This document shows positions 21,882 to 63,617 of a DNA stretch of 64,000 nt, in pieces. The position numbers were made by a program, and so were the translations under genes. The DNA lies in the NCBI RefSeq assembly GCF_024448165.1, contig NZ_JAMOLN010000013.1, positions 1-64,000 of the forward strand, given 5' to 3'. This stretch comes from Streptomyces longispororuber (GTDB lineage: Bacteria > Actinomycetota > Actinomycetes > Streptomycetales > Streptomycetaceae). Position 1 is the stretch's first letter. Each line of letters opens with the position of its first letter. The notes under the pieces are model-generated. The model had not been told where the DNA came from. It was given only the letters and a program-made list of their open reading frames with translations, and did no database searches.

Positions 21882-23165
21882 TCAGCCGGTGCCGTCGGCC
21901 ATGCAGGCCGTGAGCGTGGTGCCGTCGGCGGGGTCGATCAGCAGGAACGACCCCGTACGCCGGGAGTCCGCGTACAGGTCGAGCGCGAGCGGCTCGGCCG
22001 TGCGGACCAGCACCCGGCCGATGTCGTTCGCCGCCAGCTGCCCGGGGTCCGGGCACTGGGAGAGGTCGTCGAGGGCGAGCCGGGAGGGGATCGCGTCGAC
22101 GACCGCCTGGACCGTGCGGGTGGTGTGCTTGAGCAGCACCCGCTGACCGACGGCGAGCGGACGGTCCGCGACGTGGCAGACCACGGCGCTCACCTTCCGG
22201 GTGACCGTGGGCGCCGCGTCGGGCGGGGCGATCAGATCGCCGCGCGAGATGTCGATGTCGTCCCGGAGCCGCACCGTCACCGACTGCGGCGCCCACGCGG
22301 TCCCGACGGCCTCGCCGAGCAGGTCGATCGCCTCGACGGTGCTCGCGCGGCCCGTGGGCAGCACGGTCACCGGGTCGCCGACGCGCACGACGCCGGAGGT
22401 GATCTGCCCGGCGTAGCCGCGGTAGTCACGGTGCTCGGCGACCTGCGGGCGGATGACGTACTGCACCGGGATCCGGGCGGGCCCGTCGTCCGGGCGGTCG
22501 CCGACGGAGACGGTCTCCAGGTGCTCCAGGAGGGTGGGCCCCGCGTACCAGTCCATGGTCCGGGAGGGCTCCACCACGTTGTCGCCGGCGAGCGCGGAGA
22601 CCGGGATGGCGGTGATCTCCCCGACGCCCGGTCCCAACTCGCGTGCGTACGCGGCGAATTCCTCCGCGATGGCGTCGAAGACGGGCCGCGCGAAGTCGAC
22701 CAGGTCCATCTTGTTGACGGCGAGCACGAGGTGCGGGACGCGCAGCAGAGCGGCGATCGCGGCGTGCCGGCGGGTCTGTTCCACGATGCCGTGGCGGGCG
22801 TCGACCAGGATCACCGTCAGCTCGGCGGTGGAGGCGCCCGTCACCATGTTGCGGGTGTACTGGACGTGGCCGGGGGTGTCCGCGAGGACGAACCGGCGGC
22901 GGGGCGTGGCGAAGTAGCGGTAGGCGACGTCGATGGTGATGCCCTGCTCGCGTTCGGCCCGCAGCCCGTCGGTGAGCAGCGCGAGGTCGGGGGCGTCCTG
23001 GCCGCGGCCGCGCGAGACGTGCTCGACGGCCTCCAACTGGTCGGCGAGGACCGACTTGGAGTCGTGCAGCAGCCGTCCGACCAGCGTGGACTTGCCGTCG
23101 TCCACGGACCCGGCGGTCGCGAAGCGCAGCGTGTCGACTTCAATGGCATCAGTGGCAACAGACAT
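21882..23165 (-). CDS. cysN: CysN, sulfate adenylyltransferase GTPase subunit
   Basis: A 427-residue translation-factor-like GTPase that drives ATP sulfurylase (CysDN), making adenosine 5'-phosphosulfate. G1 motif GSVDDGKST (about 19-27), G3 DTPGHVQYTRN, G4 NKMDLV. Length is that of the free form without a fused CysC. The frame is open upstream of 23165 but MSVATDAIEVDTLRF is the usual N-terminus. The start lies 2 bases from the cysD stop. Last gene of the XRE-cysC-cysD-cysN operon. There is no sulfite-forming reductase or APS reductase nearby, so the set is aimed at PAPS, not at sulfide. Confidence 0.93.
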   Translation of the reverse strand: MSVATDAIEVDTLRFATAGSVDDGKSTLVGRLLHDSKSVLADQLEAVEHVSRGRGQDAPDLALLTDGLRAEREQGITIDVAYRYFATPRRRFVLADTPGHVQYTRNMVTGASTAELTVILVDARHGIVEQTRRHAAIAALLRVPHLVLAVNKMDLVDFARPVFDAIAEEFAAYARELGPGVGEITAIPVSALAGDNVVEPSRTMDWYAGPTLLEHLETVSVGDRPDDGPARIPVQYVIRPQVAEHRDYRGYAGQITSGVVRVGDPVTVLPTGRASTVEAIDLLGEAVGTAWAPQSVTVRLRDDIDISRGDLIAPPDAAPTVTRKVSAVVCHVADRPLAVGQRVLLKHTTRTVQAVVDAIPSRLALDDLSQCPDPGQLAANDIGRVLVRTAEPLALDLYADSRRTGSFLLIDPADGTTLTACMADGTG

Positions 23166-23167
23166 GT

Positions 23168-24151
23168 CTAGAAGTACCCTTCGCGCTTGCGGTCTTCCAT
23201 CGCGGCCTCGGACATCTTGTCGTCGGCGCGGGTGGCGCCGCGCTCGGTCAGCCGGGACGCGGCGATCTCGGTGATCACCTTCTCCACGGTGTCGGCGTCG
23301 GAGTCGACGGCGCCGGTGCAGGACATGTCGCCGACGGTGCGGTAGCGCACCAGACGGGTCTCGACCGTCTCGCCCTCCTTCGGGCCGCCCCAGTCGCCGG
23401 CCGTCAGCCACATGCCGTCGCGGTCGAACACCGGCCGCTCGTGCGCGTAGTAGATCGAGGGCAGCTCGATGTTCTCCCGAGCGATGTACTGCCAGACGTC
23501 CAGCTCGGTCCAGTTGGACAGCGGGAAGACGCGGACGTGCTCACCGGGCGCGTGGCGGCCGTTGTAGAGCTGCCACAGCTCGGGGCGCTGGCGGCGCGGG
23601 TCCCACTGGGAGAACTCGTCGCGCAGGGAGAAGACGCGTTCCTTGGCGCGGGCCTTCTCCTCGTCGCGGCGACCGCCGCCGAAGACGGCGTCGAACTTCT
23701 CGCTCCGGATGGCCTCCGTCAACGGCACGGTCTGCAGCGGATTGCGGGTCCCGTCCGGACGTTCGCGCAGCACGCCCCGGTCGATGTGGTCCTGCACGGA
23801 CGCGACGTGCAGCCGCAGCCCGTGCTCGGCGACGACGCGGTCGCGATGGGCCAGGACCTCGGGGAAGTTGTGTCCCGTGTCCACGTGCAGCAGGGCGAAG
23901 GGCAACGGGGCCGGAGTGAACGCCTTCAGCGCCAGGTGCAGCATGACGATGGAGTCCTTGCCGCCGGAGAACAGGATCACCGGCCGCTCGAACTCGCCCG
24001 CCACCTCGCGGAAGATGTGCACCGCCTCCGACTCCAGCACGTCGAGGTGGCTCAGGGCGTGCGGAGTGTCGCGGACCGGCCGCCGGGTGCCTTCGCGGCG
24101 CGGCGGACCCGTGCGTTCCGGGGCGGACCCGGGTGCGGTGACCGTCGTCAT
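23168..24151 (-). CDS. cysD: CysD, sulfate adenylyltransferase small subunit
   Basis: A 327-residue PP-loop ATPase that adenylates sulfate together with CysN. PP-loop SGGKDS at residues 62-67; other family signatures are HVDTGHNFPEV, DAVFGGGRRDEEKARAKER and the C-terminal YRTVGDMSCTGAV and DRKREGYF. It starts inside the cysC stop (4-base overlap). The first 30 residues are a Pro/Arg-rich extension. Probably a pathway-dedicated copy; a housekeeping cysDN would be expected elsewhere on the chromosome. Confidence 0.93.
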   Translation of the reverse strand: MTTVTAPGSAPERTGPPRREGTRRPVRDTPHALSHLDVLESEAVHIFREVAGEFERPVILFSGGKDSIVMLHLALKAFTPAPLPFALLHVDTGHNFPEVLAHRDRVVAEHGLRLHVASVQDHIDRGVLRERPDGTRNPLQTVPLTEAIRSEKFDAVFGGGRRDEEKARAKERVFSLRDEFSQWDPRRQRPELWQLYNGRHAPGEHVRVFPLSNWTELDVWQYIARENIELPSIYYAHERPVFDRDGMWLTAGDWGGPKEGETVETRLVRYRTVGDMSCTGAVDSDADTVEKVITEIAASRLTERGATRADDKMSEAAMEDRKREGYF

Positions 24152-24780
24152 GCCAGCCCCCTCTCGGTCAGCAGCGCGTGCAGGGCCGCCGCGCACTCGG
24201 CCACGCCCCGGGTGTGCGTCTCGATCCGCAGATCGGGGAAGTCCGGCCGCTCGTAGGGGTCGTCCACCCCGGTCAGGCCAGTGAGCCGGCCGGCCGCCTG
24301 CTGCGCGTACAGGCCCTTCACGTCGCGTTCGGCACACACCTCGACCGGGGTGGCGACGTGCACCTCCAAGTAGGGGGTGTCGCTGCTCTCGTGGCGTCTG
24401 CGGACGGCCTCCCGGTCGGCCGCGTAGGGCGCGATCACCGGGACCAGGGCGGTGACGCCGTTGCGGGCCAGCACCTCGGCGAGCAGGCCGAGGCGCTGGA
24501 CGTTGGCCTGGCGGTCGGCGCGGCTGAAGCCCAGGTCCGCGCAGAGCGACGAGCGGAGTTCGTCGCCGTCCAGCACCTCGACCCGGCGCCCGTCGGCCCG
24601 CAGCCGGTCGGCCAGGGCGCGGGCGAGGGTGGTCTTCCCGGCGCTCGGCAGGCCGGTCAGCCACACCGTCGCGCCCGGCCGGCAGGTGCAGATCGGCTCC
24701 CTCTGCGTCCTGTTCCCGTGCGGGGTCTCGTGCGGTGGCCCGTGCGGGGTCCGCGCTGATTCCGGAAGCTGCGTCGTCAT
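24148..24780 (-). CDS. cysC: CysC, adenylylsulfate kinase
   Basis: A 210-residue kinase that converts APS to PAPS, the sulfate donor for sulfotransferases. Walker A GLPSAGKTT at 43-51, then VLDGDELRSSLCADLGFSR, the APS-binding segment, and DPYERPDFPDL in the C-terminal half. Overlaps cysD by 4 bases and the XRE gene by 4. Presence of a complete cysC/D/N trio in an NRPS cluster that also has a sulfotransferase at 44.4 kb argues that sulfation is a biosynthetic step. Confidence 0.93.
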   Translation of the reverse strand: MTTQLPESARTPHGPPHETPHGNRTQREPICTCRPGATVWLTGLPSAGKTTLARALADRLRADGRRVEVLDGDELRSSLCADLGFSRADRQANVQRLGLLAEVLARNGVTALVPVIAPYAADREAVRRRHESSDTPYLEVHVATPVEVCAERDVKGLYAQQAAGRLTGLTGVDDPYERPDFPDLRIETHTRGVAECAAALHALLTERGLA

Positions 24781-25379
24781 GACACCTCCTGAATGCTGAG
24801 GCCGGTGGCCCGGGGAAAGGTCACGGCTGCCTCGCAGAGACGGTGGCGGATGGTGAGCGAGGCGTGTACCTCGTCGCCGTTGGCGGTGGTGTAGATGTGC
24901 GGGACGTCGGCGGGCCAGTGGGCGTGCCCGCCGGCCGGGACCACGACCGGCCGGCGGGCCGGTCCGACCCGGGCGCTGCCCGAGAAGACGGTCAAGTGCT
25001 CGGTGACGCCGTGCTGGTGGGGCGGGGAGACCTGGGTGATGCCGGGGCGGATGCGGATCCGGTACAGCTCCGACGTGGCCTCGTGGTCGGTGAACGTCTC
25101 CAGGAGCGTGGCGGAGACCGCGGTGCCGTGCACCTCCTCCGGCCGCCCCGCCGGATCGGGATCGGCGAGCAGGACGGCCAGCGGGATGCGGAGCTGGGTG
25201 GATATCGCGTAGAGGGTCTCGAGGGTCGGATTGCGGGTGCCGGTTTCCAGACCGGACAGCGTCGCCTTGCCGATCGACGCCCGCTGGGCCAGTTCCGACA
25301 GCGACAGACCGTACAGCCGTCGCAGCGTTCTGACACGCCGCCCGACCTCCACGGCGAATGGTTTGGTCATCTTCTCCAC
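24777..25379 (-). CDS. XRE-family HTH regulator with C-terminal cupin
   Basis: A regulator of about 200 residues (GTG at 25379; ATG at 25370 gives 197). The N-terminal HTH_3 domain (VGRRVRTLRRLYGLSLSELAQ ... GKATLSGLETGTRNPTLETL) is followed by a small beta-barrel cupin domain (HQHGVTEHLTVFSGSARVGP ... VVVPAGGHAHWPADVPHIY) that could bind a small ligand or metal. It leads the cysC-D-N operon and diverges from the halogenase gene. Two copies of a 16-base palindrome (GTTCCGAA...GGAAC) lie in the 140 bases between, one touching its own ribosome site, so autoregulation and joint control of the cys and halogenase operons are likely. Confidence 0.85.
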   Translation of the reverse strand: MEKMTKPFAVEVGRRVRTLRRLYGLSLSELAQRASIGKATLSGLETGTRNPTLETLYAISTQLRIPLAVLLADPDPAGRPEEVHGTAVSATLLETFTDHEATSELYRIRIRPGITQVSPPHQHGVTEHLTVFSGSARVGPARRPVVVPAGGHAHWPADVPHIYTTANGDEVHASLTIRHRLCEAAVTFPRATGLSIQEVS

Positions 25380-25389
25380 ATTCCTTTCC

Positions 25390-25405
25390 GTTCCGAAAAA
25401 GGAAC
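25390..25405. promoter_or_regulatory. operator-like palindrome 1 (GTTCC-N6-GGAAC)
   Basis: GTTCCGAAAAAGGAAC, 10 bases upstream of the XRE gene GTG. Half-sites GTTCC/GGAAC with a 6-base centre. It shares 14 of 16 bases with the second copy, 36 bases away centre to centre. Confidence 0.65.
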
Positions 25406-25425
25406 CTCAATGTCTTGCGCCAGGC

Positions 25426-25441
25426 GTTCCGAATTCGGAAC
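25426..25441. promoter_or_regulatory. operator-like palindrome 2 (GTTCCGAATTCGGAAC)
   Basis: A perfect 16-base palindrome between the divergent XRE-cys operon and the halogenase operon, 12 bases upstream of a TTGACA hexamer. Together with the first copy it is the best candidate target of the XRE-cupin protein. Confidence 0.7.
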
Positions 25442-25453
25442 GAGAGGCCTTCC

Positions 25454-25483
25454 TTGACAGTGAACTCAGCGGCGTGTTCACCT
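25454..25483 (+). promoter_or_regulatory. candidate promoter of the halogenase operon
   Basis: A consensus -35 hexamer TTGACA at 25454-25459 followed 18 bases later by a weak -10 (TCACCT, 25478-25483). The halogenase ATG is 40 bases downstream with AAAAGGTGGG before it. The -35 is convincing, the -10 is not. Confidence 0.4.
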
Positions 25484-25522
25484 GTTTGAGGCGAGATGAA
25501 ACCTCCTACTAAAAGGTGGGTC

Positions 25523-26470
25523 ATGGCTCAGCAGATATCGGATTTCGCGCTTTCCGACGCTCAGATCGAGCAGTTCAACGAGAATGGATTCATCGGTCCG
25601 TTCGACGTGTACGAGCCGGAGGAGATGGACCGCAGCCTGAAGGCGCTGCGGCCCAAGCTGATCAACACGAAGACGTCGATCTACCAGCAGAGCGGTGCCG
25701 TCTCCGGCACCACCAACCTGGCCAACTACGACCGTCACCTCGACGTCGACTTCCTGGCCGACCACATCACCCAGCCCAGCATCGTGGGGCCGGTGACCAG
25801 CCTGGTCGGCCCCGACGCGCTCTGCTGGCGCACCGAGTTCTTCCCCAAGTACCCCGGCGACGAGGGCACCGACTGGCACCAGGCCGACAACTTCTCCAAC
25901 GTGGCCGGCTCGAAGTACCCGCAGATCGTGTGGCCCGAGGACGCGGAGTTCGGCGGCACCATCACCGTGTGGACCGCGTTCACCGACGCCACCGTCGAGA
26001 ACGGCTGCCTGCAGTTCATCCCGGGCTCGCACAAGACGATGAACTACGACGAGTCCAAGGTGATGGAATACGACGCGGATTCCATCAACAAGAAGGAGAA
26101 GGACGGCGTCAGGCGCGGCTTCTTCGGCTATGACTACCGGCAGCTCCAGAAGGACCCGAATTGGAGCCCGGACGAGTCCAAGGCCGTCTCGATGGAGATG
26201 CGCAAGGGCCAGTGCATCGTCTTCTGGTCGACGCTCATGCACGCCTCGCACCCGCACAACGGCCTGACCGACCAGATGCGCCTTGGTTTCGCGGCCCGCT
26301 ACCTGCCGACGTCCGTCCGCGTCTACCCGTACTCCGACGCGCTCGTGGAGTTCGGCGGCGAGGCCAGCCTCGACAAGTTCGGCAACGTCCTGGTCGCCGG
26401 CAAGGACGGCTACGGACACAACCGCTTCGTCGACCGGACCGTCACCGGTCGTCCCTTCGTCACGCGATAG
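25523..26470 (+). CDS. SyrB2-type Fe(II)/2-oxoglutarate halogenase
   Basis: A 315-residue enzyme closely resembling SyrB2 of syringomycin (310 residues): [51 protein letters not shown] and [12 protein letters not shown] all line up with what I recall of SyrB2. The iron site reads His119-Gln-Ala121 and His240. Ala replaces the carboxylate of hydroxylases, which opens the site for chloride, so this is a halogenase of unactivated aliphatic carbon. Arg253 would bind 2-oxoglutarate. Such enzymes act on aminoacyl groups tethered to a carrier protein, and a free carrier and free A domain follow directly. The ATG at 25523 has AAAAGGTGGG upstream. With the flavoprotein two genes on, the product is more likely a cyclopropane than a retained chloride (KtzD/KtzA logic). 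Confidence 0.93.
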
Positions 26471-26482
26471 GAGGCCAACTCG

Positions 26483-26734
26483 ATGGCCAGCACAGAGATC
26501 GAGTCCTGGGTCGTGGACACCTGCCGCGAACTGGGGCTGCTGGTGGAGCAACCTGGCGACGACTTCTTCGCCGGCGGCGGCAACTCGCTGACCGCGGTCC
26601 GCCTCATCGCGAAGGCCGAGGAGCGGTTCGGCGAGGACAGCCTGATGCCCGACGACCTCTTCGAGCGCAGCACGGTGCAGGAGATCGCCGCGACGATCCA
26701 GGCGAGCCGGGACCGGTCCCGGGTCCTGGACTGA
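26483..26734 (+). CDS. free peptidyl carrier protein
   Basis: An 83-residue stand-alone thiolation domain. Phosphopantetheine attaches to Ser35 in FFAGGGNSLTAVRL. It has AGGAGG upstream and sits 12 bases after the halogenase and 12 before the A domain. Role by analogy with KtzC or the SyrB1 carrier: it holds the amino acid while the halogenase and flavoprotein work on it, then passes it to the assembly line. Confidence 0.92.
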   Translation: MASTEIESWVVDTCRELGLLVEQPGDDFFAGGGNSLTAVRLIAKAEERFGEDSLMPDDLFERSTVQEIAATIQASRDRSRVLD

Positions 26735-26746
26735 CAGGAGTTCGGC

Positions 26747-28321
26747 ATGGACAGGCTGACCGGCGGCGACGTGGCACTCGCCGTGCACCGGCGGATCAAC
26801 CGCACCGCCGTGCCCTACCCCGACGACCGGGGCGTCAAGGAGCTGTTCGAGGCGGTCGCCGCCCGTCTGCCCGAAGCGACCGCGCTCGTCCACCGGGACC
26901 GCGTGATCACCTACCGCGACCTGAACCGGGCGGCGAACGGGGTCGCCGCGGAGCTGCGGCGCCGCGGCGTCACCCCGGGCGCCGCCGTCGTGATCGGGGT
27001 GGGCCGCTCGCCCGAGCTGATCGCCGCGATCCTCGGCGTGCTCAAGTGCGGCGGCCACTACGTCCCGGTGGACCTCGGCTGGCCGGCGGAGCGCATCCGG
27101 TCGGTCCTGGCGCAGACCGGTGCCGCGCACCTCGTCACCGACACACCGGACGCGGTCGCCGGCCGGTTCCCCGGACTCGACGTCCTGTCGCCGGACGTGC
27201 CGCCCGTCGAGGCGGACCCGGCGCTGCGGACGGGTCCTGACGACCTCGCCTACGTCAACTTCACCTCCGGCTCCACCGGCCGGCCCAAAGGCGTGCCGAT
27301 CCGGCACCGCAGCATCGCCCGCCTGGTCTTCGACGCCCGGTACGCCCGGCTCGGCGAGCGCACCAGGATCCTCCAGCTCGCGCCCGTGTACTTCGACGCG
27401 GCGACGTTCGAGATCTGGGGCGCGCTGCTGCACGGCGGGACGTGCGTGCTCTACCCGTCGCCGTGGATCCGGCTGTCCGAGCTCAAGCGGACCGTCGCCG
27501 CGCACGGTGTCACCGTGGTCTTCCTGACCACGGCACTGTTCAACACCGTGGTGGACGAGGGGCCCGCCGCTCTCGACCAGGTCGAAACCGTCCTGACCGG
27601 CGGCGAGTTGCACTCCATGCGGCACCTGCGCAAGGCGGTGGCCCGCTACGGCCCCGGCAAGGTCGTCAACGTGTACGGCCCGACCGAGTGCACGACGTTC
27701 GCCACCTACTCCCCGCTCGACCTGGACGGGCTGCCGGAGTCCGTCGCCGACCTTCCGATCGGGCTCCCCCTGCAGAACACCCGGCTGTACGTGGTCGACG
27801 GCGACACCCTGTGCCCGCCCGGCCGGGTCGGCGAGATCTGCCTGGCGGGTCCCGGCCTGTCGCCCGGCTACCTCGACGCGCGCGACGCGGCCCGCGGGCA
27901 CTTCGTGGAGCGCGAGATCGACGGGGTCCGCGAACGGCTGTACCGGACCGGTGACCGCGGGCGGCTGCGCGCGGACGGCGAGGTCGTCTTCGAGGGCCGC
28001 CTTGACGACCAGGTGAAGATCAACGGGTTCCGGATCGAGCTCAGCGAGGTCGCCCACCACCTTGACCGGCACCCCGGAGTGCGGTTCAGCCACGTGGCGG
28101 TCGGTGAGAACGGCGCGGGGGAGAAGACACTGATCGCGTTCGCGGTTCCGCGCGACGACCGGTGCACGGCGCAGGAGATCACGGAGTTCCTGGGCGTGCA
28201 CCTGCCGGGTTACATGGTGCCGACGGCGATCCATCTGCGGGACTCCCTCCCTCTGTCCGGAACCGGCAAGGTGGACCGGCAGGCTCTGGTGACGGAGTAC
28301 GCCGTAGGGGGTGCGCAGTGA
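26747..28321 (+). CDS. free adenylation domain, Ile-like code
   Basis: A 524-residue amino-acid-activating enzyme without C or T domain. Core motifs: A3 FTSGSTGRPKG, A5 NVYGPTE, A7 YRTGDRG, A10 GTGKVDR. Aligned by eye to GrsA-PheA, the specificity residues read D-A-F-F-L-G-V-T-F-(K), a branched-chain, isoleucine-like code. That agrees with kutzneride KtzB, which loads Ile for chlorination and cyclopropane formation. It would load the preceding free carrier protein. Its stop overlaps the next gene (GTGA), so the four-gene cassette is one transcription unit. Confidence 0.88.
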   Translation: MDRLTGGDVALAVHRRINRTAVPYPDDRGVKELFEAVAARLPEATALVHRDRVITYRDLNRAANGVAAELRRRGVTPGAAVVIGVGRSPELIAAILGVLKCGGHYVPVDLGWPAERIRSVLAQTGAAHLVTDTPDAVAGRFPGLDVLSPDVPPVEADPALRTGPDDLAYVNFTSGSTGRPKGVPIRHRSIARLVFDARYARLGERTRILQLAPVYFDAATFEIWGALLHGGTCVLYPSPWIRLSELKRTVAAHGVTVVFLTTALFNTVVDEGPAALDQVETVLTGGELHSMRHLRKAVARYGPGKVVNVYGPTECTTFATYSPLDLDGLPESVADLPIGLPLQNTRLYVVDGDTLCPPGRVGEICLAGPGLSPGYLDARDAARGHFVEREIDGVRERLYRTGDRGRLRADGEVVFEGRLDDQVKINGFRIELSEVAHHLDRHPGVRFSHVAVGENGAGEKTLIAFAVPRDDRCTAQEITEFLGVHLPGYMVPTAIHLRDSLPLSGTGKVDRQALVTEYAVGGAQ

Positions 28322-32268: not shown

Positions 32269-32527
32269 GAACGGCGATCTCTTCCTGAGCAGGGGGCGCG
32301 CTCGCCCCCGACGGCCGGCTCTCGCCCGCCATCGCGCGGCGCAGACTCAGCGGCCGCATATCGGTCCAGTGCGCCTCGATGTATTCCAGGCACTGCTCCT
32401 TGGCGGTCGGCTCCAGCACGGCACGCCAGCCGGCCGGAATCTCTTTTCCGTCGGGCCAGATCGAGTACTGCTCCTCTTCGTTGATCACAACGACATGGCG
32501 CTCGGAACTGTCGGTAGACACACTCAT
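32258..32527 (-). CDS. MbtH-like protein
   Basis: An 89-residue partner protein that many NRPS adenylation domains need for folding or activity. The MbtH signature is complete: [38 protein letters not shown] disordered tail of about 25 residues follows. Only one MbtH gene is seen, so it probably serves all A domains of the right cluster. Confidence 0.94.
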
Positions 32528-32660
32528 CTCCCTACATGACCTTTGTGTGGTGGCAACTGCAGGTATGGGCTGTCGATCTGCCCGTCGAGCCGATTGTGCG
32601 AAATCCTATTCGCAGCCGCTCAAGAAGGGCTTGGAAGTTGCCATAGGCGACGCGGGCCGG

Positions 32661-32678
32661 CCCGGCAGAAGAGCCGGG
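32661..32678 (-). terminator. hairpin between thioesterase and MbtH genes
   Basis: CCCGGC-AGAAGA-GCCGGG, a perfect 6-base stem with a 6-base loop, in a 226-base gap with no gene. It may be an attenuator or partial terminator separating the NRPS part of the operon from mbtH and the regulator. There is no T-run. Confidence 0.3.
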
Positions 32679-32753
32679 GAACACGGCCCGAAATTCCGTC
32701 ACGTCGCGTTTGGGCGCAGGTCAATTAGTGGGAAGGCCGTTCCACGCCCAAGA

Positions 32754-45198: not shown

Positions 45199-45288
45199 TG
45201 TCGTCCCTTCGCCGGCACGGCCGTTGAGCTCCGCAGTCTGGCACGGAACGGAGCCCCGTCCGAGGCGTTGCGGCCCTTCGCCGGGTAG

Positions 45289-45299
45289 GGGAACTTCCC
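45289..45299. promoter_or_regulatory. palindrome GGGAACTTCCC in divergent region
   Basis: Perfect palindrome in the 185-base gap between the sulfotransferase and the thioesterase/NRPS operon. Related sites occur at 41539 and 41589 in the other divergent region, so it may be a shared operator. The regulator is not known. Confidence 0.35.
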
Positions 45300-45383
45300 G
45301 ACTGTCACGCCCCCGGGACGGCTGCGAATCTCGAACCAGCTCTGCAGGGATCGTCCGACTCGACGGGAACAGTGTGGTGTCGC

Positions 45384-46145: not shown

Positions 46146-46219
46146 CCAGGGCCCGGACGACCAACGTTCCGGTGCACACGGCGCACGCACGGCGGCGAGA
46201 CCGAGAGGGAGGAACAGGC

Positions 46220-49656
<3,437 letters not shown>

Positions 49657-49660
<4 letters not shown>

Positions 49661-57100: not shown

Positions 57101-57338
57101 GCTGCTCTCGGAGATCTGGGCGGACGTGCTCGAACTCCCCGAGGTCGGCGTCCAGGACAACTTCTACGAGCTCGGCGGCAATTCGCTGCGCGCCGTCCGG
57201 GTCTTCCAGCGCACCCAGGACGAGGGGCTCGTGACGGCCCTGGAGCCCATGCTCGGCGACCACACCATCGAACAGCTCGCGGCCGGACTCGGCACCGGCT
57301 CCGGCGAGGCCCTGCACGACATCGGCCAGCTCCAGTGA
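54192..57338 (+). CDS. NRPS module C-A-T
   Basis: A 1048-residue single-module NRPS. C domain at about 10-440 with MHHIVSDGWS; A domain at about 455-950 with HTSGSTGTPKGA, NLYGPAET and NGKIDR; carrier with Ser in FYELGGNSLR near 998. Code by eye D-V-V-H-H-G-L-V-F-(K). The C-terminal part of the pocket resembles Ser-type domains but position 239 is Val and 299 is His, so the substrate is probably unusual. It is the last NRPS before the dioxygenase and amino-acid genes, which makes it a candidate for a non-standard monomer from that pathway. Confidence 0.9.
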   Translation: MSEQALADDEPFELPASFGQERLWLLDRLAAGSAYHLGGAIRLDGPLDPDALARAVTRLVERHEILRTTLELSTDGQLVQLVHPDVRSATARLEAPEPTLDAARRTLAEYVDAPFDLAAGPLLRTALVRFGETSWLFGVVMHHIVSDGWSIGVFHTELAAFYREEIGAQAADLPELPIQYGDFAAWQRDTVGEAGSEFTDYWRERMAGAAPLEPAVPVTGPGVSSNVPVALPAALVEAVDRLAKQESATPFMVLTAAYMAVLARWTERDDIVIGIPVAGRPRPELHHLIGFFVNTLPLRTRVDGGSSFRALLAAVRETCLGAFEHQDLPFERIVEVSGAERVQGRTPLVNAILALQNTPAPQWDLPGITAEQVDLADLPAQFSLNLYLSGTADAGLAGRIVHDEQWDPADVQRLAQGWLALLTDAVADPAKPVGLLSLGVRGDGAEDAEPPYGDGLVHQWITEAARKHPDRIAITAPDDEITYRELDERSDDWARLLRSYGVGPDRLVALCMQRSCAQIVAALGILKSGAGYMPLDPGHPKERLERLIANAGTPVVVADEATAGLFDDGAGVRILLADSVLADRHDGPAPDTRDQHPESLAYVIHTSGSTGTPKGAMNTHRGVVNVMRWTQRQFSLTPADAVLVKTPWSFDVSTVEWMAPLSAGARLVVAEPGGHRDPRYLAGLIAEQSVTFAHFVPSMLQAFLAEPAAARCAGTLRLVHVGGEALPIATAGRFSEVLPDTELWNLYGPAETAVFVSVHPVGAADLDRQRVPIGHQMRGTRLHVLDRRGEPVPPGVPGELHVGGVSVGRGYLGSPALTAERFVPNPFTPGARLYRTGDRVRRLPDGALEFLGRYDHQVKLRGIRVELGEIEAALGRHPDVRQVVVEVRGTGADIRPVAYVGCPEHQPTGEDLRGFLLRTLPPALVPSTFVVLPALPVSVNGKIDRSALPEADLAVRRTVAAVAPRTPAERLLSEIWADVLELPEVGVQDNFYELGGNSLRAVRVFQRTQDEGLVTALEPMLGDHTIEQLAAGLGTGSGEALHDIGQLQ

Positions 57339-57436: not shown

Positions 57437-57454
57437 ACGGAGAAAGTGGGAAGG

Positions 57455-58192
57455 ATGTCGGTTGCAACCCTGGCCCTGACACGTCGGGCGGAAGCACTCG
57501 GGAAATGGGGGGAGGCCCTGGCGGGCGACGACTTCGTCGCGCTCCCGGGCAGCGAGCTGGCCGGCTGGTTCACACCGGCGGACCGCGCCCGCTTCTTCGC
57601 CACCTGGGACCACCTGCACCGCGACGAACTGGTCACCGGCGGCGTCGTCCGCGAGCGGCGGTACGGGCGCCTGGCGGCCTCGCGCGGCCCCGGCGGCGAG
57701 TGGAGCTTCACGCCGCTGCCGCACCAGGCCTTCCAGCAGACCGCGGAGCACATCCCGCTGTACGAGGGACAGGCCAGGATGTTCAGCCCGATCCGGGCCG
57801 AGACGCTGGCCGACCCGGTCCTCACCGGACTGATCGCGGCCGACCTGGCGGTCGTCGCCGCGGTCGTCCCCGAGGCGTCCCGCTTCGAGGTGGGCCTGCA
57901 CCAGATCCGGGTGCTGGCCACGCCCGACGCGCCGGGCTGCCCGACCCCCGAGGGCCGGCACCGGGACGGCCACGACTTCATCGGCATGCACCTCATCGGC
58001 CGGGTGAACTGCGCGGGCGGCGAGTCGGTGGTCCACCGCGAAGGACTGCCGCCGACCCGGATGACGCTCACCGAGCGGCTCGACTCGCTCGTCGTGTCCG
58101 ACACCCGGATCACCCACGAGGTCACCCCCACCGTCGCCGACGGCGCCACCGGCGTACGGGACATGCTGCTGGTCGACATCAATGAACGCTGA
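57455..58192 (+). CDS. 2OG-Fe dioxygenase, PF10014 / isoleucine-hydroxylase type
   Basis: A 245-residue Fe(II)/2-oxoglutarate oxygenase. The facial triad is His169 and Asp171 in EGRHRDGHDFIG and His221 in ITHEVTP; AGGESVVH after the first motif is typical of the PF10014 group that includes L-isoleucine 4-hydroxylase IDO and hydroxylates free amino acids. Unlike the halogenase at 25.5 kb the acidic iron ligand is present, so it hydroxylates or desaturates. The substrate may be the diamino acid released by the next gene product. ATG at 57455 sits directly after GGGAAGG; GTG at 57446 is an alternative. It overlaps the next gene by 11 bases. Confidence 0.8.
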   Translation: MSVATLALTRRAEALGKWGEALAGDDFVALPGSELAGWFTPADRARFFATWDHLHRDELVTGGVVRERRYGRLAASRGPGGEWSFTPLPHQAFQQTAEHIPLYEGQARMFSPIRAETLADPVLTGLIAADLAVVAAVVPEASRFEVGLHQIRVLATPDAPGCPTPEGRHRDGHDFIGMHLIGRVNCAGGESVVHREGLPPTRMTLTERLDSLVVSDTRITHEVTPTVADGATGVRDMLLVDINER

Positions 58193-59288
58193 CCCGACGC
58201 ACGCCGAGGCGACGCGGACGCTGCGCGGCCTGGTGGAGATCCCCTCGCCGTCCGGAGCGGAAGCGGCGGCCGGGGCCTTCCTCGCCGCGCGGATGACGGC
58301 GCTCGGCTACGACGTGCGCACCGACGCCGTCGGGAACGTGATCGGCGAGATCGGCGACCCCACCGGGCCGGTGATCATGATGGTCGGCCATCTGGACACG
58401 GTGCCGGGGGACCTCCCGGTCCGGGAGTCCGGCGGCCTGCTGTTCGGCCGGGGCACCGTGGACGCCAAGGGCCCGCTCGCCACCTTCGTGCACGCCGGGG
58501 CACGGGCGGCCGCCGCCGCGGGCGCCCGGATCGTCGTGGTCGGCGCGGTGGAGGAGGAGGCCGCCTCGCGCGGTGCCCACCACCTCGCCGCCACCGTCGA
58601 CCCGCCGGACGCCCTGCTGATCGGCGAGCCGAGCGGCGCCGGCGCCGTCGTCGTCGGCTACCGCGGAGTCCTGCGTTTCCGCTACGAGGTGCGGCGCCCG
58701 CCCGCCCACACGAGCAGCCCCGCCGAACGGGCCGCCGAACTCGCCAGTGACCTGTGGCAGGCGGTGCGCACCCTGCTGCCGCCCGCCCCGGCGGACGCCT
58801 CGCTCTTCGAGCACGCCGCGCCGGCCCTCGTCGCCCTGGAGGGCGGCCTGACCCACGCCCGCGCCGAGATCTCCTGCCGCGTGCCGCGCGGCTTCGACGC
58901 CGCCCGCTTCCTCGACGAGGTGCGCGGACACGCGGCGGGCGGCGAGATCACCGTCGTCGAGCAGGTGCCGGCCGTCCGGACCGGACGCGGCACGCCCCTG
59001 GTCCGCGCCTTCGCCGGCGCCGTGCGCCGGCGGACCGGCGCGGTCTCCGTCAAGGTCAAGCTCGGCACCTCCGACATGAACATCCTCGCGCCCCACTGGG
59101 ACGTGCCCGCCCTCGCGTACGGCCCCGGGGACTCCCGGCTCGACCACACCGACGAGGAGCACATCCCGCTGGCCGAGTACCTGCTCGCCGTCGACGTCCT
59201 GACCGAGGCACTCCCGGACATCGCGAAGTCCCTGGCCCGGCCGCTGGTTGGAGCGGCCGCCCCCACCAACGAAGAGAGGCGACCGTGA
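58182..59288 (+). CDS. M20 metallohydrolase, LysK-like
   Basis: A 368-residue di-zinc deacylase. Metal ligands are visible in VGHLDTVPG, GTVDAKGPL, EEEAASRG, GEPSG and HTDEEHIP; GTVDAKGP is characteristic of LysK, the enzyme that frees lysine or ornithine from the amino-group carrier protein LysW. In the Streptomyces secondary pathways (vazabitide, ficellomycin, azinomycin) a homologue releases the finished diamino-dihydroxy acid from its carrier. It is followed by a LysX-like ligase with a 4-base overlap, which supports this reading over a general peptidase. Confidence 0.85.
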   Translation: MNADPTHAEATRTLRGLVEIPSPSGAEAAAGAFLAARMTALGYDVRTDAVGNVIGEIGDPTGPVIMMVGHLDTVPGDLPVRESGGLLFGRGTVDAKGPLATFVHAGARAAAAAGARIVVVGAVEEEAASRGAHHLAATVDPPDALLIGEPSGAGAVVVGYRGVLRFRYEVRRPPAHTSSPAERAAELASDLWQAVRTLLPPAPADASLFEHAAPALVALEGGLTHARAEISCRVPRGFDAARFLDEVRGHAAGGEITVVEQVPAVRTGRGTPLVRAFAGAVRRRTGAVSVKVKLGTSDMNILAPHWDVPALAYGPGDSRLDHTDEEHIPLAEYLLAVDVLTEALPDIAKSLARPLVGAAAPTNEERRP

Positions 59289-60136
59289 GCGTCGACGACC
59301 TCCCCCTGGCCGTGCTGGCCTCCCGGATCAGACTCGAGGAGAAGCAGCTCCTCGCCGAACTCGACAGGCGCCGGGTCCCGTTCACGCTCCTGGACACCAG
59401 GACGACCGTCTTCGGATCCGGCCACGACTTCCGCTTCCGAGGCGCGCTCACCCGCGAGATCGGACACACCCGCAACCTGTACGCCACCCGGCTGCTCGAA
59501 CACGCGGGCGTGACCGTGGTGAACTCCTCGGCCATCCTCGACACCTGCGGGGACAAGCTGTTCACCACGCTCAAGCTGGAGGCGGCCGGACTCCCGGTGA
59601 TCCGCTGGATGGCGACGCTCACCCCGGAGGGGGCGCTGCCCGTCCTGGCGGACTTCGGCTACCCCGCCGTGGTCAAGCCCGTCGTCGGATCGTGGGGGCG
59701 GCTCGCCTCCCGTCTCGACGGCCACGACGCGGCCGAGGCGGTCCTCGAACACCGCGACGCGCTGCCCGGACCGGTCAACAAGATCACCTACGTCCAGGAG
59801 TACATCGACAAGCCGGGCCGCGAGATCAAGGCGTACGTGATGGGCGGCGAGACCGTCGGGGCGATCTACAAGAGCTCCGACGAGTGGCGCACCAACACCA
59901 AGCGCGGCGGCATCCCCTCGGTGTGCACACCGGACGACGACCTGCTGAAGCTGCTCACCGCCACGGCCGAGGCGATCGGCGACGGCGTCCTCGGCATCGA
60001 CGTGCTGGAGGACCGCTCGGGCGCGTACTACGTCAACGAGGTCAACCACACGCCGGAGTTCCACGGCGCGCTGGACGTCCTCGAAGTGGACCTGGTCGGA
60101 CGCTACGTCGACCACGTCCTGAGCAGGGTGGGGTGA
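59285..60136 (+). CDS. ATP-grasp ligase, LysX-like
   Basis: A 283-residue ATP-grasp enzyme of the LysX/RimK group. Landmarks: N-terminal LAVLASRIRLEEKQLL, RNLYATRLLEHAGVTVVNS, KPVVGSWGRLASR, YVQEYIDKPGREIKAYVM, TNTKRGGIPS and the metal-binding EVNHTPEFHG. LysX attaches alpha-aminoadipate to the C-terminal Glu of LysW; the secondary-metabolism homologues attach Glu instead, starting the route to 2,6-diamino-5,7-dihydroxyheptanoic acid. The carrier protein it would need is not visible in this window. GTG start inside the lysK-like stop. Confidence 0.88.
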   Translation: MSVDDLPLAVLASRIRLEEKQLLAELDRRRVPFTLLDTRTTVFGSGHDFRFRGALTREIGHTRNLYATRLLEHAGVTVVNSSAILDTCGDKLFTTLKLEAAGLPVIRWMATLTPEGALPVLADFGYPAVVKPVVGSWGRLASRLDGHDAAEAVLEHRDALPGPVNKITYVQEYIDKPGREIKAYVMGGETVGAIYKSSDEWRTNTKRGGIPSVCTPDDDLLKLLTATAEAIGDGVLGIDVLEDRSGAYYVNEVNHTPEFHGALDVLEVDLVGRYVDHVLSRVG

Positions 60137-60140
60137 CCCG

Positions 60141-60422
60141 GTGAGCGAGCACCCCATCGAGTGCCGGGGCGGCCTCGTGCCGCTGCCGCCCGGCCACCGG
60201 GACTGGCTGCCGCTGGTGTTCGGCGGCGACGACCAGGCACGCGCCGTCGACGGCGCCGAGGTCCTGGTGCACTACCCCGACGCGGTGGACCCCGAGTGGA
60301 TCCACTGCCGGCCGGGGCTGAACCGGGCCCGCGTCCCGCTCGTCAGGCCCGAGAACCCCACCGCGATCCGCCTGCCCGACCGTCCGGGCGTCTGGGTCCA
60401 CATCGAGGAGGCTGCCGCATGA
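60141..60422 (+). CDS. 93-residue protein of unknown function
   Basis: A small soluble protein, GTG start, lying 4 bases after the LysX-like gene and overlapping the aminotransferase start by 4 bases, so it is surely translated. It has GGLVPLPPGHRDWLPLVFGG, two Cys (IECRG, WIHCRPG), and a C-terminus GVWVHIEEAAA. It is not a LysW-type carrier: there is no CxxC zinc site and no C-terminal acidic EDWGE-like tail. I do not recognise a family. Its place inside the operon suggests a role in the carrier-protein pathway. Confidence 0.8.
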   Translation: MSEHPIECRGGLVPLPPGHRDWLPLVFGGDDQARAVDGAEVLVHYPDAVDPEWIHCRPGLNRARVPLVRPENPTAIRLPDRPGVWVHIEEAAA

Positions 60423-61747
60423 CCGGAAACGGGCTGGCGATGTTCGGCGGTCCCCGCGCCGTACCCCGCGACCGGGCCACGAAGGACCTGGTCGGCTGGC
60501 CGGTGATCACCGACGCGGAGCGCCAGGCCGTCGTCGGGGTCCTGGAGAGCGGCCAGTTCACCTCGAACAACCCCGGCGCGGGACAGGTGCAGCTCCTCGA
60601 ACGCGAGTGGGCCGCACTGGTCGGCACCGAGCACTGCGCCGCGGTCTCCAACGGCACCACCGCGCTGGAACTCGCCCTGGCCGCGGCCGGCGTCGAGCCC
60701 GGCTCGGAGATCCTGGTCCCGGCGCTGTCGTTCATCGCGAGCGCCGTGGCCCCGGTGCACCGGCTCGTCGTCCCCGTCTTCGTGGACATCGACCCGGTCA
60801 CCTACACCATGGACCCGCGCGCCGTCGCCGCGGCCATCACGCCGCGTACCGCCGCGATCCTCGCCGTCCATCTGCACGGCCTGCCCTGCGACATGGACGA
60901 GCTGCGCGAACTCTCCCGCCGCCACGGCCTGTTGCTCATCGAGGACGCCGCCCAGGCGCACGCCGCCGAGTACCGCGGGACCCGGACCGGCGCGCTCGGC
61001 GACGTCGCCGCCTTCAGCCTCAACGTGGTCAAGAACCTGCCGACCTGCGGCGAGGGTGGCCTGATCACCACGGACGACTCCGAGCTGTACTCCCGGCTGC
61101 TGCGCCACCGCCAGTTCGGCGAGGAGCTCGAAGGGCGCGCCAAGCGCGACTACATCTCCCACGAGCTGGCGGGCAACGCCAAACTCAGCGCGGTCCAGGC
61201 CGCGTTCACCCGCTGCCAGCTGGACCGGCTCCCGGAGTACCACCAGGCGCGCGACCGCAACGTCCGGGCCCTGCTCGACCGGCTCGACGCGCTGCCCGGC
61301 CTCCTGGTGCCGCACTGCCCCGACGACCGCACGCACGCCTGGCACATCCTCCGCTTCCGCTTCTCGCCCGAGCAGATGGGCATCGAGGGCGCGACGCCCG
61401 GCGCGGTCCGCGCCGCCGTCGAGCGGGTGATGCGGGCCGAGGGCGTCCCGCTCCAGCAGTACCAGCCGGTGCCGCTGCCCGAGCAGGAGGCGCTGCTGAC
61501 CCGCAAGGGGTTCGGCGGCTACCCGTGGAAGCTGCGGCCCGGCGAGTACGGACCGACCGACACCTACCCGAACACCCTCGCCGTCATCGAGGACTCGCTG
61601 ACCCTGCAGCGCTGGCACCTCAACCCGGCCGCGGGACCGGTCCTCCAGGACTGCGCGGCCGCGTTCGAGAAGGTCTGGGCGAACCTCGACAAGGTGGCGA
61701 CGCTCGCCCGGACGATGAGCCCCGCGCCGGCGGAGGCGGTCCGATGA
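60419..61747 (+). CDS. DegT/DnrJ/EryC1-family PLP aminotransferase
   Basis: A 442-residue fold-type I aminotransferase. The PLP Lys is Lys205 in FSLNVVKNLPTCGEGG; other landmarks are GTEHCAAVSNGTTALELAL, VPALSFIASA and LIEDAAQAHAA. In the carrier-protein pathway a family member aminates the ketone made by the transketolase, giving the 6-amino group of the diamino-dihydroxyheptanoate. It is longer at the C-terminus than sugar aminotransferases (about 370-400). Coupled by 4-base overlaps at both ends. Confidence 0.9.
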   Translation: MTGNGLAMFGGPRAVPRDRATKDLVGWPVITDAERQAVVGVLESGQFTSNNPGAGQVQLLEREWAALVGTEHCAAVSNGTTALELALAAAGVEPGSEILVPALSFIASAVAPVHRLVVPVFVDIDPVTYTMDPRAVAAAITPRTAAILAVHLHGLPCDMDELRELSRRHGLLLIEDAAQAHAAEYRGTRTGALGDVAAFSLNVVKNLPTCGEGGLITTDDSELYSRLLRHRQFGEELEGRAKRDYISHELAGNAKLSAVQAAFTRCQLDRLPEYHQARDRNVRALLDRLDALPGLLVPHCPDDRTHAWHILRFRFSPEQMGIEGATPGAVRAAVERVMRAEGVPLQQYQPVPLPEQEALLTRKGFGGYPWKLRPGEYGPTDTYPNTLAVIEDSLTLQRWHLNPAAGPVLQDCAAAFEKVWANLDKVATLARTMSPAPAEAVR

Positions 61748-62625
61748 CGTCAACAACCGCTGCGACCACGACGACCGCCACGACCGCGACCGCCCGCGAG
61801 GACGTCGCCACCCTCGCCGAGCGGGCGCACCGGGTGCGGGAGCGGGTGCTGGAGATGGGCGCCGGCGAGACCGGCACCCACCTCGGCGGCAGCCTCTCCG
61901 CCGCCGACCTGCTGACCGTGCTCTACGGCTCGGTGCTGCGCGTCGATCCCGACCGCCCCGACTGGCCCGACCGCGACCGGTTCGTGCTCAGCAAGGGCCA
62001 CGCGGGCGCCGCCCTGTACGCCGTGCTCGCCGAGTACGGGTTCATCCCGTCCGAGGAGTGCGCCGACTACGCGAAGGCGGGCAGCCGGCTCGCCGCGCAT
62101 CCGCTGCGCCGCGTCGAGGGCGTCGAGTTCCCCACCGGCTCGCTCGGCCACGGCCTCTCGCTGGCCGCGGGCGCCGCGCTCGCCGCCCGCCGACTCGGCC
62201 GCCCCTCCCGGGCGTTCGCCCTGCTCGGCGACGGCGAGCTGCAGGAGGGCTCGGTCTGGGAGGCCGTGATGGGTGCGGCCCACCACAAGCTGGACAACCT
62301 CGTCGCCGTCGTGGACCGCAACGGCTGGCAGATCAGCGGCACCACGGAGGAGTGCCTGTCGCTGGAGCCGCTGGCCGACCGCTGGCGCTCCTTCGGCTGG
62401 GCGGTGCGCGAGGTGGACGGACACGATCTGCCCGCGCTGCTCGCCGTGTTCGACGGACTGCCGGACCCCGAGGGACGGCCGACGGTCGTCCTGGCCCGCA
62501 CCGTGAAGGGCCGCGGCGTCCCGATGCTCGAGGACCGCAAGAAGAGCCACTTCGTCAAGCTGACGCCGAAGCTCCACGTGCGCGCGTTGGCGGGACTCCG
62601 CAACCGCAGGGAGCGACAACAGTGA
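61744..62625 (+). CDS. transketolase, N-terminal (TPP-binding) subunit
   Basis: A 293-residue N-terminal half of a split transketolase. TPP site GDGELQEGSVWEAV followed by NLVAVVDRNGWQ, plus SKGHAGAALYAVLAEYG and AHPLRRVEGVEFPTGSLGHG. Split pairs of this kind transfer a two-carbon ketol unit to the carrier-bound glutamate semialdehyde in the vazabitide-type route, making the C7 skeleton. A Thr/Ala-rich stretch occupies the first 15 residues. ATGA overlap with the aminotransferase. Confidence 0.92.
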   Translation: MTSTTAATTTTATTATAREDVATLAERAHRVRERVLEMGAGETGTHLGGSLSAADLLTVLYGSVLRVDPDRPDWPDRDRFVLSKGHAGAALYAVLAEYGFIPSEECADYAKAGSRLAAHPLRRVEGVEFPTGSLGHGLSLAAGAALAARRLGRPSRAFALLGDGELQEGSVWEAVMGAAHHKLDNLVAVVDRNGWQISGTTEECLSLEPLADRWRSFGWAVREVDGHDLPALLAVFDGLPDPEGRPTVVLARTVKGRGVPMLEDRKKSHFVKLTPKLHVRALAGLRNRRERQQ

Positions 62626-63617
62626 CCGAGCTGACGATCGCGCAGGAGGCGCCCGCCGCGCCGGAGCCCAGCTGGGAGGAGCGGTACGCGGGACCGAGCC
62701 GGGAGATCTGCCGGCGCACCCTGGCCGAACTCGCCCGGCGGGACCCGCGGATCATGTGCGTGGACTCCGACGTCGGCGGACTGGAGACCCTCTTCGCCGA
62801 CCTGCCCGAGCAGTACGTCAACGTGGGCATCGCCGAGGCCAACCTGATCGGCATGGCCGCGGGCATGGCCGCGTCCGGCCTCGTCCCGTTCGCGCACACC
62901 CTGAGCGGCTTCGCCGCGGCCCGCGCCTGCGAGCAGATCAAGGTGGACGTGGCGGGCAACGACCTGCCGGTGCGCATCATCGCCACCCACGGCGGACTGT
63001 CCGCGGGACACTACGGGCCCACCCACCACGCGGTGGACGACATCGGGATCCTGCGGCTGCTGCCCAACCTCACCGTGCTGGTGCCCGCCGACGCGGTGGA
63101 GGCGGAGGCGGCGCTGATCGCCGCCGCCGACCATCCCGGCCCGGTCTTCCTGCGGCTGGGCCGCAGCGAGACGCCCCTCGTCCACCGGGGCCCCGTCGAC
63201 TTCCGGATCGGCCGCGCCCTGACGCTCGCCGACGGCGACGACGTCACGCTGATCGCGACCGGACCGCATCCGGTGCTGATGGCGCGGCGCGCCGCCGAGA
63301 CGCTGGCCGCCGAGGGCATCGGGGCCCGCGTCCTCAACATGCACACCATCAAGCCGCTGGACGAGGAGGCGGTGCTGCGGGCGGCGGCCGAGACCGGAGG
63401 CATCGTCACCGTCGAGGACCACCTGGTGACCGGCGGCCTCGGCGGCGCCGTCTGCGAGGTCGTGGCGGCCCGCGGCGGCTGCCCGGTGCGCCGGATCGGG
63501 GTGCCCGACCGCTTCAGCGACCGGGTCGGCGGTGAGCTCGACCTGCTTCGGCACGCGGGCGTCACCCCGGAGCGCATCGCCGCCGAGGCCCGGCTGCTGA
63601 CCGGAGCGGCGGTCTGA
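62622..63617 (+). CDS. transketolase, C-terminal subunit
   Basis: A 331-residue partner with the pyrimidine-binding domain and C-terminal domain of transketolase. The catalytic Glu is in NVGIAEANLIGMAAG; THGGLSAGHYGPTHHAVDD and VTVEDHLVTGGLGGAV are family marks. GTG start overlapping the N-subunit stop by 4 bases. It is the last plus-strand gene; the next gene is convergent 6 bases away, so the kinase, reductase and carrier protein of the route must be on another transcript. Confidence 0.92.
   Translation: MTELTIAQEAPAAPEPSWEERYAGPSREICRRTLAELARRDPRIMCVDSDVGGLETLFADLPEQYVNVGIAEANLIGMAAGMAASGLVPFAHTLSGFAAARACEQIKVDVAGNDLPVRIIATHGGLSAGHYGPTHHAVDDIGILRLLPNLTVLVPADAVEAEAALIAAADHPGPVFLRLGRSETPLVHRGPVDFRIGRALTLADGDDVTLIATGPHPVLMARRAAETLAAEGIGARVLNMHTIKPLDEEAVLRAAAETGGIVTVEDHLVTGGLGGAVCEVVAARGGCPVRRIGVPDRFSDRVGGELDLLRHAGVTPERIAAEARLLTGAAV

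Follow-up and report, generated by a model that had tools for sequence, protein, structure and literature searches.

The first 64,000 bases (the window) of NZ_JAMOLN010000013.1, an 81,842-base contig in the 10.5-Mb genome of Streptomyces longispororuber, carry part of a nonribosomal peptide synthetase (NRPS) gene cluster. Its genes were assigned by scans against Pfam and NCBIfam, together with a sequence search of the PDB, and it comprises 40 genes and 56.65 kb, at about 21,882 to 78,531 of the contig; the end of the window cuts the cluster, the remainder of which lies beyond it. An earlier sequence-only reading of the window had described a single NRPS locus in which a halogenase cassette is joined to genes for LysX, LysK, an aminotransferase and a split transketolase, accompanied by a sulfotransferase and the genes that supply its 3'-phosphoadenosine 5'-phosphosulfate (PAPS). 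The domain scans recovered every gene named in that reading at the same position, and the locus proved to extend past the window, where LysW, the carrier protein, and the putative aziridine-forming pair follow out of reach of that reading (Table 1). The cluster also contains a second flavoprotein pair (33,536-35,586), a stand-alone adenylation (A) domain (43,012-44,460) and a protein with condensation (C), thiolation (T) and thioesterase (TE) domains that has no A domain of its own.

Table 1. Genes of the cluster in contig numbering (identical to window numbering up to 64,000). APS, adenosine 5'-phosphosulfate; ACAD, acyl-CoA dehydrogenase; MT, methyltransferase domain; 2OG, 2-oxoglutarate; FAAL, fatty acyl-AMP ligase; ORF, open reading frame.
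Position	Strand	Product or feature	Evidence
21,882-23,165	-	CysN-like GTPase subunit of sulfate adenylyltransferase (PAPS supply)	PF00009 E 5.9e-40; 84-85% identity in CL7 and G021
23,168-24,151	-	CysD, sulfate adenylyltransferase subunit	PF01507 E 2.4e-45
24,148-24,780	-	CysC, APS kinase	PF01583 E 3.6e-53
24,777-25,379	-	XRE/cupin regulator	PF01381 E 9.9e-13, PF07883
25,496-26,470	+	SyrB2/KtzD-type non-haem iron halogenase	TIGR01762; SyrB2 2fct E 1.4e-130
26,483-26,734	+	Stand-alone carrier protein (KtzC-like)	PF00550 E 1.7e-10
26,747-28,321	+	Stand-alone A domain (KtzB-like), code DAFFLGVT	PF00501
28,318-29,445	+	ACAD-like flavoprotein (KtzA-like), predicted cyclopropane-forming	PF00441/02770/02771
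29,428-32,268	-	LuxR-family (LAL-type) regulator	PF13191, PF00196
32,258-32,527	-	MbtH-like protein	PF03621 E 2e-20
32,754-33,539	-	Thioesterase 1	PF00975 E 1.2e-41
33,536-34,432	-	Short ACAD-like protein, beta partner of predicted oxidase pair	PF00441 E 6e-15
34,429-35,586	-	ACAD-like protein, alpha partner of predicted oxidase pair	ACAD N, M and C domains; PDB 8hk0_A E 1.2e-88
35,589-38,168	-	NRPS C-T-TE, no A domain	Pfam
38,168-41,488	-	NRPS C-A-T, code DVFDFGAV, predicted azabicycle module	Pfam and code
41,723-43,015	+	MFS exporter	PF05977 E 2.2e-35
43,012-44,460	+	Stand-alone A domain, code DVQHIAQV	PF00501 E 1.3e-57
44,437-45,198	-	Sulfotransferase	PF19798 E 1.3e-20
45,372-46,145	+	Thioesterase 2	PF00975 E 4e-41
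46,142-49,660	+	NRPS C-A-T, code DMYSVGLY	Pfam and code
49,657-54,195	+	NRPS C-A-MT-T, Ser-like code DVWHVSLI	Pfam and code
54,192-57,338	+	NRPS C-A-T, code DVVHHGLV	Pfam and code; start inferred, scanned ORF 54,063-57,338
57,455-58,192	+	2OG-Fe dioxygenase	PF10014 E 1.7e-50
58,182-59,288	+	M20 peptidase, LysK-like	PF01546 E 3.1e-23
59,285-60,136	+	LysX-like ATP-grasp ligase	PF22626, PF08443; TIGR02144, TIGR00768
60,141-60,422	+	93-aa protein related to C-terminal part of AziU2	Profile-profile comparison and blastp
60,419-61,747	+	DegT/DnrJ aminotransferase	PF01041 E 3.9e-83
61,744-62,625	+	Transketolase, N half	PF00456 E 7.4e-43
62,622-63,617	+	Transketolase, C half	PF02779, PF02780
63,623-64,462 (window shows 63,623-64,000)	-	GNAT acetyltransferase	PF00583 E 7.1e-12
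64,451-65,050		AziU2 homolog	PDB 8gs1_A/7wuw_A E 2e-34
65,047-66,087		AziU3 homolog	PDB 8gs1_B/7wuw_C E 2e-56
66,152-66,550		VOC/glyoxalase protein	
66,710-66,895		LysW	PF21344 E 2.8e-15
66,898-67,923		LysY	Pfam
68,003-68,857		LysZ	Pfam
68,904-70,235		Second M20 peptidase	
70,260-75,434		FAAL-like/T/C-A-T NRPS	
75,555-78,065		Penicillin acylase	PF01804 E 1.1e-174
78,067-78,531		154-aa protein, membrane type by eye	

By Pfam domain the amino-group-carrier set is complete, comprising LysW together with LysX, LysZ, LysY and a LysK-like peptidase. LysW ends in EDWGE and scores above the PF21344 cut-off and, at 51.3 bits, just below that of TIGR01206 (53.2); LysX likewise falls just short of TIGR02144 (258.4 against 275.6 bits, E 6.5e-77) and exceeds the cut-off of the RimK family TIGR00768 (213.5 against 143.4 bits). 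The azabicycle gene set was also found, namely the split transketolase, the DegT aminotransferase, the sulfotransferase, the PAPS genes and homologs of AziU2 and AziU3. Pfam leaves the two AziU homologs unassigned or describes them vaguely, and they were identified through the PDB, a sequence search of which gave no relative for the sulfotransferase. The 93-aa protein encoded upstream of the aminotransferase resembles AziU2 in its C-terminal part only (profile-profile probability 99.3%, E 1.6e-20; blastp E 4e-6), and it is kept in the studied cluster and in the three related ones described below, as well as, apart from AziU2, in genomes G199, G002 and G041.

In the cassette, the halogenase scores 434.5 bits against TIGR01762 (chlorinating enzyme, cut-off 226.3) and aligns with SyrB2. 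It shares the motif WHQAD with its counterparts in the three related clusters and in Kutzneria sp. 744, and we take the Ala of this motif to occupy the position at which the iron-binding motif of hydroxylases has Asp or Glu. The order of the four cassette genes is the same in Kutzneria sp. 744, with identities of 73, 56, 59 and 59% for halogenase, carrier, A domain and flavoprotein, and we presume that the names KtzA to KtzC apply to the homologs of the last three. Seven of the eight A-domain code residues are equal in the two organisms (DAFFLGVT and DAFFLGMT) if the code positions are as we assume, and such a code presumably denotes a branched aliphatic residue. The four-gene halogenase cassette is also encoded on the Mycobacterium intracellulare plasmid NZ_CP015269.1 (19958-23994), in a 43-kb stretch that shows no annotated NRPS modules within 20 kb of it.

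Conservation of the cluster was analyzed in Streptomyces sp. CL7 and in a sample of 392 Streptomyces genomes that includes strain YIM 130001 (G021) and S. parvulus JCM 4068 (G200). All 40 genes are present in CL7 and in YIM 130001, and 37 of the 40 in S. parvulus, where the C-T-TE protein was counted as found through its TE part alone. Every neighbouring pair keeps the same order (39 of 39, 39 of 39 and 36 of 36, respectively), the median identity across the related clusters being 83-85%. The full agreement in gene order with two other genomes (40 of 40 genes) excludes chance grouping. S. parvulus lacks cysN, cysC and the gene for the stand-alone A domain, although its contig stops inside cysD and cysN may lie beyond. 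The stretches compared extend 3-29 kb past the cluster, except on the cys side of S. parvulus, where the contig ends inside it, and 12 of the 14 flanking ORFs found no match in the CL7, YIM 130001 and S. parvulus stretches, the other two being ABC ATPases that match at 33-50%; nor does the MFS gene at 78,598 have an ortholog in these three loci. Among the 27 genes measured out of 40, pairwise synonymous divergence (dS) ranges from 0.14 to 0.60 and omega from 0.11 to 0.57. These values do not separate the halogenase group from the azabicycle group, and the measured genes of both groups are under purifying selection at similar synonymous rates. Because gene order is conserved, the flanks differ and divergence is similar, the borders can be set near 21,882 and 78,531 and the two groups have been inherited together. 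The comparison thus upholds the proposal of the sequence-only reading that both groups belong to one pathway, against the separate pathways that it had considered. In CL7 the whole cluster resides on a 458-kb linear plasmid, pSALBX2, a location that may explain its patchy spread; a search of plasmids with AziU3 returned four records, of which only that of CL7 exceeds 60%.

A single locus could nevertheless yield two products, with the NRPS making an azabicycle peptide and the cassette either a separate small molecule or a residue for NRPS genes elsewhere. The mycobacterial plasmid cassette lends some weight to such an arrangement, as does the tentative nature of any assignment of the cyclopropyl residue to a module. 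The cassette and the NRPS nevertheless form one block, the order of which is kept in three other Streptomyces with different flanks, and every module except the C-T protein owns an A domain, so that one of these domains could still take up the cyclopropyl amino acid in free form. On this evidence we consider two products quite unlikely.

The carrier-protein genes can be read in the light of described pathways. Passages of PMC9570651 outline for azinomycin an acetylated diamino-dihydroxyheptanoate that undergoes sulfation and aziridine closure, with a carrier-protein variant for vazabitide A, and PMC11880133 treats sulfotransfer in the formation of the azabicyclohexane of ficellomycin. Among the titles cited in the latter, that of Cheng et al. 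2023 refers to an NRPS-associated oxidase heterotetramer completing 1-azabicyclo[3.1.0]hexane, a role that the flavoprotein pair, with 8hk0_A as the best PDB match of its alpha partner, would fit by inference. The NRPS genes offer a further marker. Of the 28 sampled genomes with an AziU3 homolog, all except G360 (27 of 28) have an A domain that reads DVFDFGGV or DVFDFGAV, and in four of the 27 (G163, G320, G076 and G002) this domain and AziU3 are on separate contigs. Conversely, the 19 genomes that score best for the A domain of the 38,168-41,488 module all have an AziU3 homolog, and outside AziU3 loci the signature appears in only one of the 13 best-scoring A-domain matches (DVFDFGGV, in G124), the 12 signature-free matches including two from other loci of AziU3 genomes. 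The DVFDFGAV A domain is therefore likely to mark the azabicycle module, and the DVFDFG[GA]V signature could help to locate such modules in genomes. The 25 other AziU3 loci gave no halogenase match in the stretches examined, some of which are as short as 3.5 kb. DVFDFGGV is not exclusive to azabicycles, since G124 combines this code and a flavoprotein pair with no AziU3 homolog. The same genome suggests that the LysW-made amino acid might stop short of a full azabicycle, either as a simple aziridine or as a diamino-dihydroxy acid that stays open, but the studied cluster contains the sulfotransferase, the PAPS genes, AziU2, AziU3 and the flavoprotein pair, those measured are under purifying selection, and the heterotetramer title points to ring completion; an incomplete ring is accordingly judged unlikely.

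With respect to the cassette, one may ask whether it chlorinates without forming a cyclopropane, its flavoprotein catalyzing some other oxidation, the chlorine being kept, or the residue being another branched one. The ring is a prediction from sequence, and the chemistry of the family may vary, given that G124 has a related halogenase beside an A domain with a code that we take to be Thr-like and a flavoprotein only 45% identical to the one studied here. Against this stand the 59-60% identity of the studied flavoprotein to the Kutzneria sp. 744 protein and the equal gene order, as well as the cryptic chlorination by KtzD of thioesterified Ile, which a passage in a 2025 review (PMC12615548) describes as preparing the cyclopropyl ring of allocoronamic acid. 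Chlorination without ring closure seems fairly unlikely, and the cassette is predicted to turn carrier-bound Ile into a cyclopropyl residue. The 2OG dioxygenase at 57,455 was discarded as an enzyme acting on Ile, homologs being found in seven of 25 azabicycle loci without a halogenase (G002, G199, G041, G077, G086, G076 and G157).

The assembly line has six extension modules, in agreement with the peptide of about six residues foreseen by the sequence-only reading. Beyond the A codes of Table 1 (DMYSVGLY, DVWHVSLI, DVVHHGLV, DVFDFGAV and the stand-alone DVQHIAQV), the A domain of the FAAL-like NRPS reads DVTHVSLI, its three relatives having DVLHVILI or DVLQVILI, and the counterpart of DVVHHGLV in these relatives is DV[GA]HQSL[VI]. 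The FAAL-like domain matches its subfamily below the cut-off, and the penicillin acylase has, by eye, a hydrophobic N-terminus. S. parvulus (G200:C23, about 45,000-51,750) has lost two elements, the C-T part of the A-less protein and the stand-alone A domain, leaving a docking peptide joined directly to the thioesterase. Because the two were lost together, the simplest reading is that the stand-alone A domain loads the C-T of 35,589-38,168 in trans. The gene for this A domain is in two frames in YIM 130001 (G021:C14:64858-66302), owing to a sequencing error or to a broken gene.

From the observed gene content, order, conservation, motifs and codes, the following chemical steps, residue order and final product may be proposed. 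LysX would link Glu to LysW, and LysZ and LysY would convert it to a semialdehyde. Extension of this intermediate by two carbons, through the split transketolase, and its amination by the aminotransferase would lead to a carrier-bound diamino-dihydroxyheptanoate. The sulfotransferase, fed by CysNDC, would then sulfate a hydroxyl, and AziU2 and AziU3 would expel the sulfate to form an aziridine. Once freed from the carrier by the LysK-like M20 peptidase, the amino acid would be loaded by the DVFDFGAV module and oxidized on its carrier by the flavoprotein pair, upon which the azabicycle would close. The cassette enzymes would attach Ile (or Val) to their own carrier protein and chlorinate it, with the flavoprotein closing the ring. 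Chain synthesis would begin with an acyl group introduced by the FAAL-like NRPS and continue through the six extension modules, the last of which would receive its residue in trans from the stand-alone A domain. The penicillin acylase, which is probably exported, would remove the acyl cap outside the cell as a means of self-protection. Taken as a whole, it seems reasonable to postulate that the cluster probably makes one fatty-acylated peptide with two ring-bearing residues, one of them cyclopropyl and the other an azabicyclic aziridine. More tentatively, and somewhat short of what we would call probable, it may define a new class of prodrug lipopeptides in which a cyclopropyl group and a 1-azabicyclo[3.1.0]hexane warhead share one chain, cleavage of the cap by the penicillin acylase outside the cell frees the warhead, and S. 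parvulus represents a version that is naturally one module shorter.

Several observations weigh against a single product of this kind, beyond the G124 module described above. AziU3 homologs occur in 28 and halogenases (E up to 1e-60) in 41 of the 392 sampled genomes, and the two are found together in four genomes, against 2.9 expected by chance. In the window genome, YIM 130001 and S. parvulus they share a contig, at a distance of 35-39 kb, and in G278 they are on different contigs; only their linkage in one lineage is special. In S. parvulus (G200:C23, about 61,800-62,658), cysD directly follows the regulator, cysC not being placed between them as in the other three clusters. Furthermore, of the 24 other halogenase loci examined, 18 (11 of 17 and 7 of 7) have a thioesterase within the cassette or immediately next to it, and the studied cluster and Kutzneria have none at that place. 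Finally, the sole A-less module is absent from S. parvulus, in which the cassette is kept and reads through. Regarding the thioesterase, a FastTree phylogeny groups thioesterase 2 with those of two halogenase loci without a flavoprotein (L120 and L121; support 0.88), so that thioesterase 2 is a possible cassette thioesterase; thioesterase 1 groups with none of the cassette thioesterases and was set aside.

The last of these points also bears on how the cyclopropyl residue would enter the peptide. The A-less C-T-TE protein was rejected as its acceptor, S. parvulus having no C-T and an intact cassette, and the residue would consequently enter, probably, as a free amino acid through an A domain, or else by transfer. 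Four of the 392 genomes contain close relatives of the DMYSVGLY protein (E up to 1e-180), in each case on a contig that also carries a halogenase. This module (46,142-49,660) was likewise rejected as acceptor, because G124 pairs it with the Thr-like cassette code and because a like module of Streptantibioticus cattleyicolor (DMYSGGLY) has no halogenase match in 43 kb. In that organism the module is accompanied by a FAAL-like NRPS and a penicillin acylase (pSCAT 19944-35576). Elimination weakly points to DVVHHGLV as the cyclopropyl module, since it is the sole one for which no close counterpart was seen in G124 or in the azabicycle loci. A kutzneride-type O-methyltransferase in the Ser module was also discounted, the MT region finding no match in an 80-kb Kutzneria stretch.

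Outside the cluster, the window begins with the tail of a polyketide synthase (3-7774, plus strand; ketosynthase, ketoreductase, acyl carrier protein, ketosynthase and hydrolase/thioesterase-type domains), which has no match in the related loci. Two tandem ABC ATPases with two ABC matches each (ABC-F-like) follow at 8399-11822 on the minus strand, and a TENA/PqqC-like protein adjoins a radical SAM/SPASM protein at 12181-14361 on the plus strand. A scan of 21,000-33,000 for promoters and terminators gave no signal above that of shuffled sequences.

The sequence-only reading had maintained that each gene group is known alone and had been aware of no described product with both. Kutzneride-type cassettes and azinomycin/vazabitide/ficellomycin-type pathways indeed provide known counterparts for each, and neither the gene set nor a two-ring product was found in open-licence titles and abstracts, among the matches listed, nor in the available parts of PMC9570651, PMC10764440, PMC12615548, PMC9040887 and PMC11880133. 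The product might nonetheless be known and its cluster described outside the open-licence literature, given that the cluster occurs in S. parvulus, a worked species, and that an 89% relative of the DMYSVGLY protein is found in a record named S. albogriseolus, likewise a worked species; weighed against the open-licence titles and abstracts, this has, in our view, a small probability. It is thus the combination that appears to be the new element, its parts being known singly. Amino acids with an aziridine and those with a cyclopropane are both uncommon and arise by different chemistry, and the cluster offers direct, testable access to a new family of peptides, which may alkylate DNA. It is available in four strains, one of them with a culture-collection number (S. 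parvulus JCM 4068), in which the natural module deletion pairs the stand-alone A domain with its likely target.

Among known systems, the kutzneride cassette of Kutzneria sp. 744 (KtzD-KtzC-KtzB-KtzA) corresponds to the studied one gene by gene, but the 21 kb around it hold no match to LysX, LysW or AziU3. Conversely, we know of no halogenase cassette in the vazabitide A and ficellomycin clusters. The likeness to these two, drawn from their descriptions, lies in the carrier-protein route to the azabicycle precursor of vazabitide A, as given in passages of PMC9570651, and in the sulfation-mediated azabicyclohexane of ficellomycin (passages of PMC11880133). With azinomycin B, compared only through PDB sequences, the cluster shares adjacent AziU2 and AziU3 homologs, and it contains both the transketolase pair and the type of gene for the sulfation step reported in PMC9570651; azinomycin differs in its NRPS body, in the halogenase cassette and in its reported start from N-acetyl-Glu, the carrier protein being the alternative in the same source. 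Closer relatives are found among the sampled genomes. G199 and G041 share LysW, LysX, LysY, LysZ and LysK, the transketolase, the aminotransferase, AziU2 and AziU3, the dioxygenase, the flavoprotein pair and a DVFDFGGV module at 35-69% identity, G199 also having a FAAL-like domain, but nothing in the 58-60 kb examined in them matches the halogenase cassette or the penicillin acylase. G124, on the other hand, shares the FAAL-like NRPS, the DMYSVGLY module, the Ser-MT module, the penicillin acylase, the exporter, the halogenase and the flavoproteins, and differs in the cassette A code and flavoprotein noted above. LysX, LysW, the transketolase and AziU3 found no match there over 80 kb; the G124 locus (G124:C1:7062116-7113891) also encodes an argininosuccinate-synthase-like protein and a reductase-ended NRPS. 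We infer from these comparisons that the studied cluster looks like a cross between the G124 kind and the G199/G041 kind on a common acyl-capped chassis.

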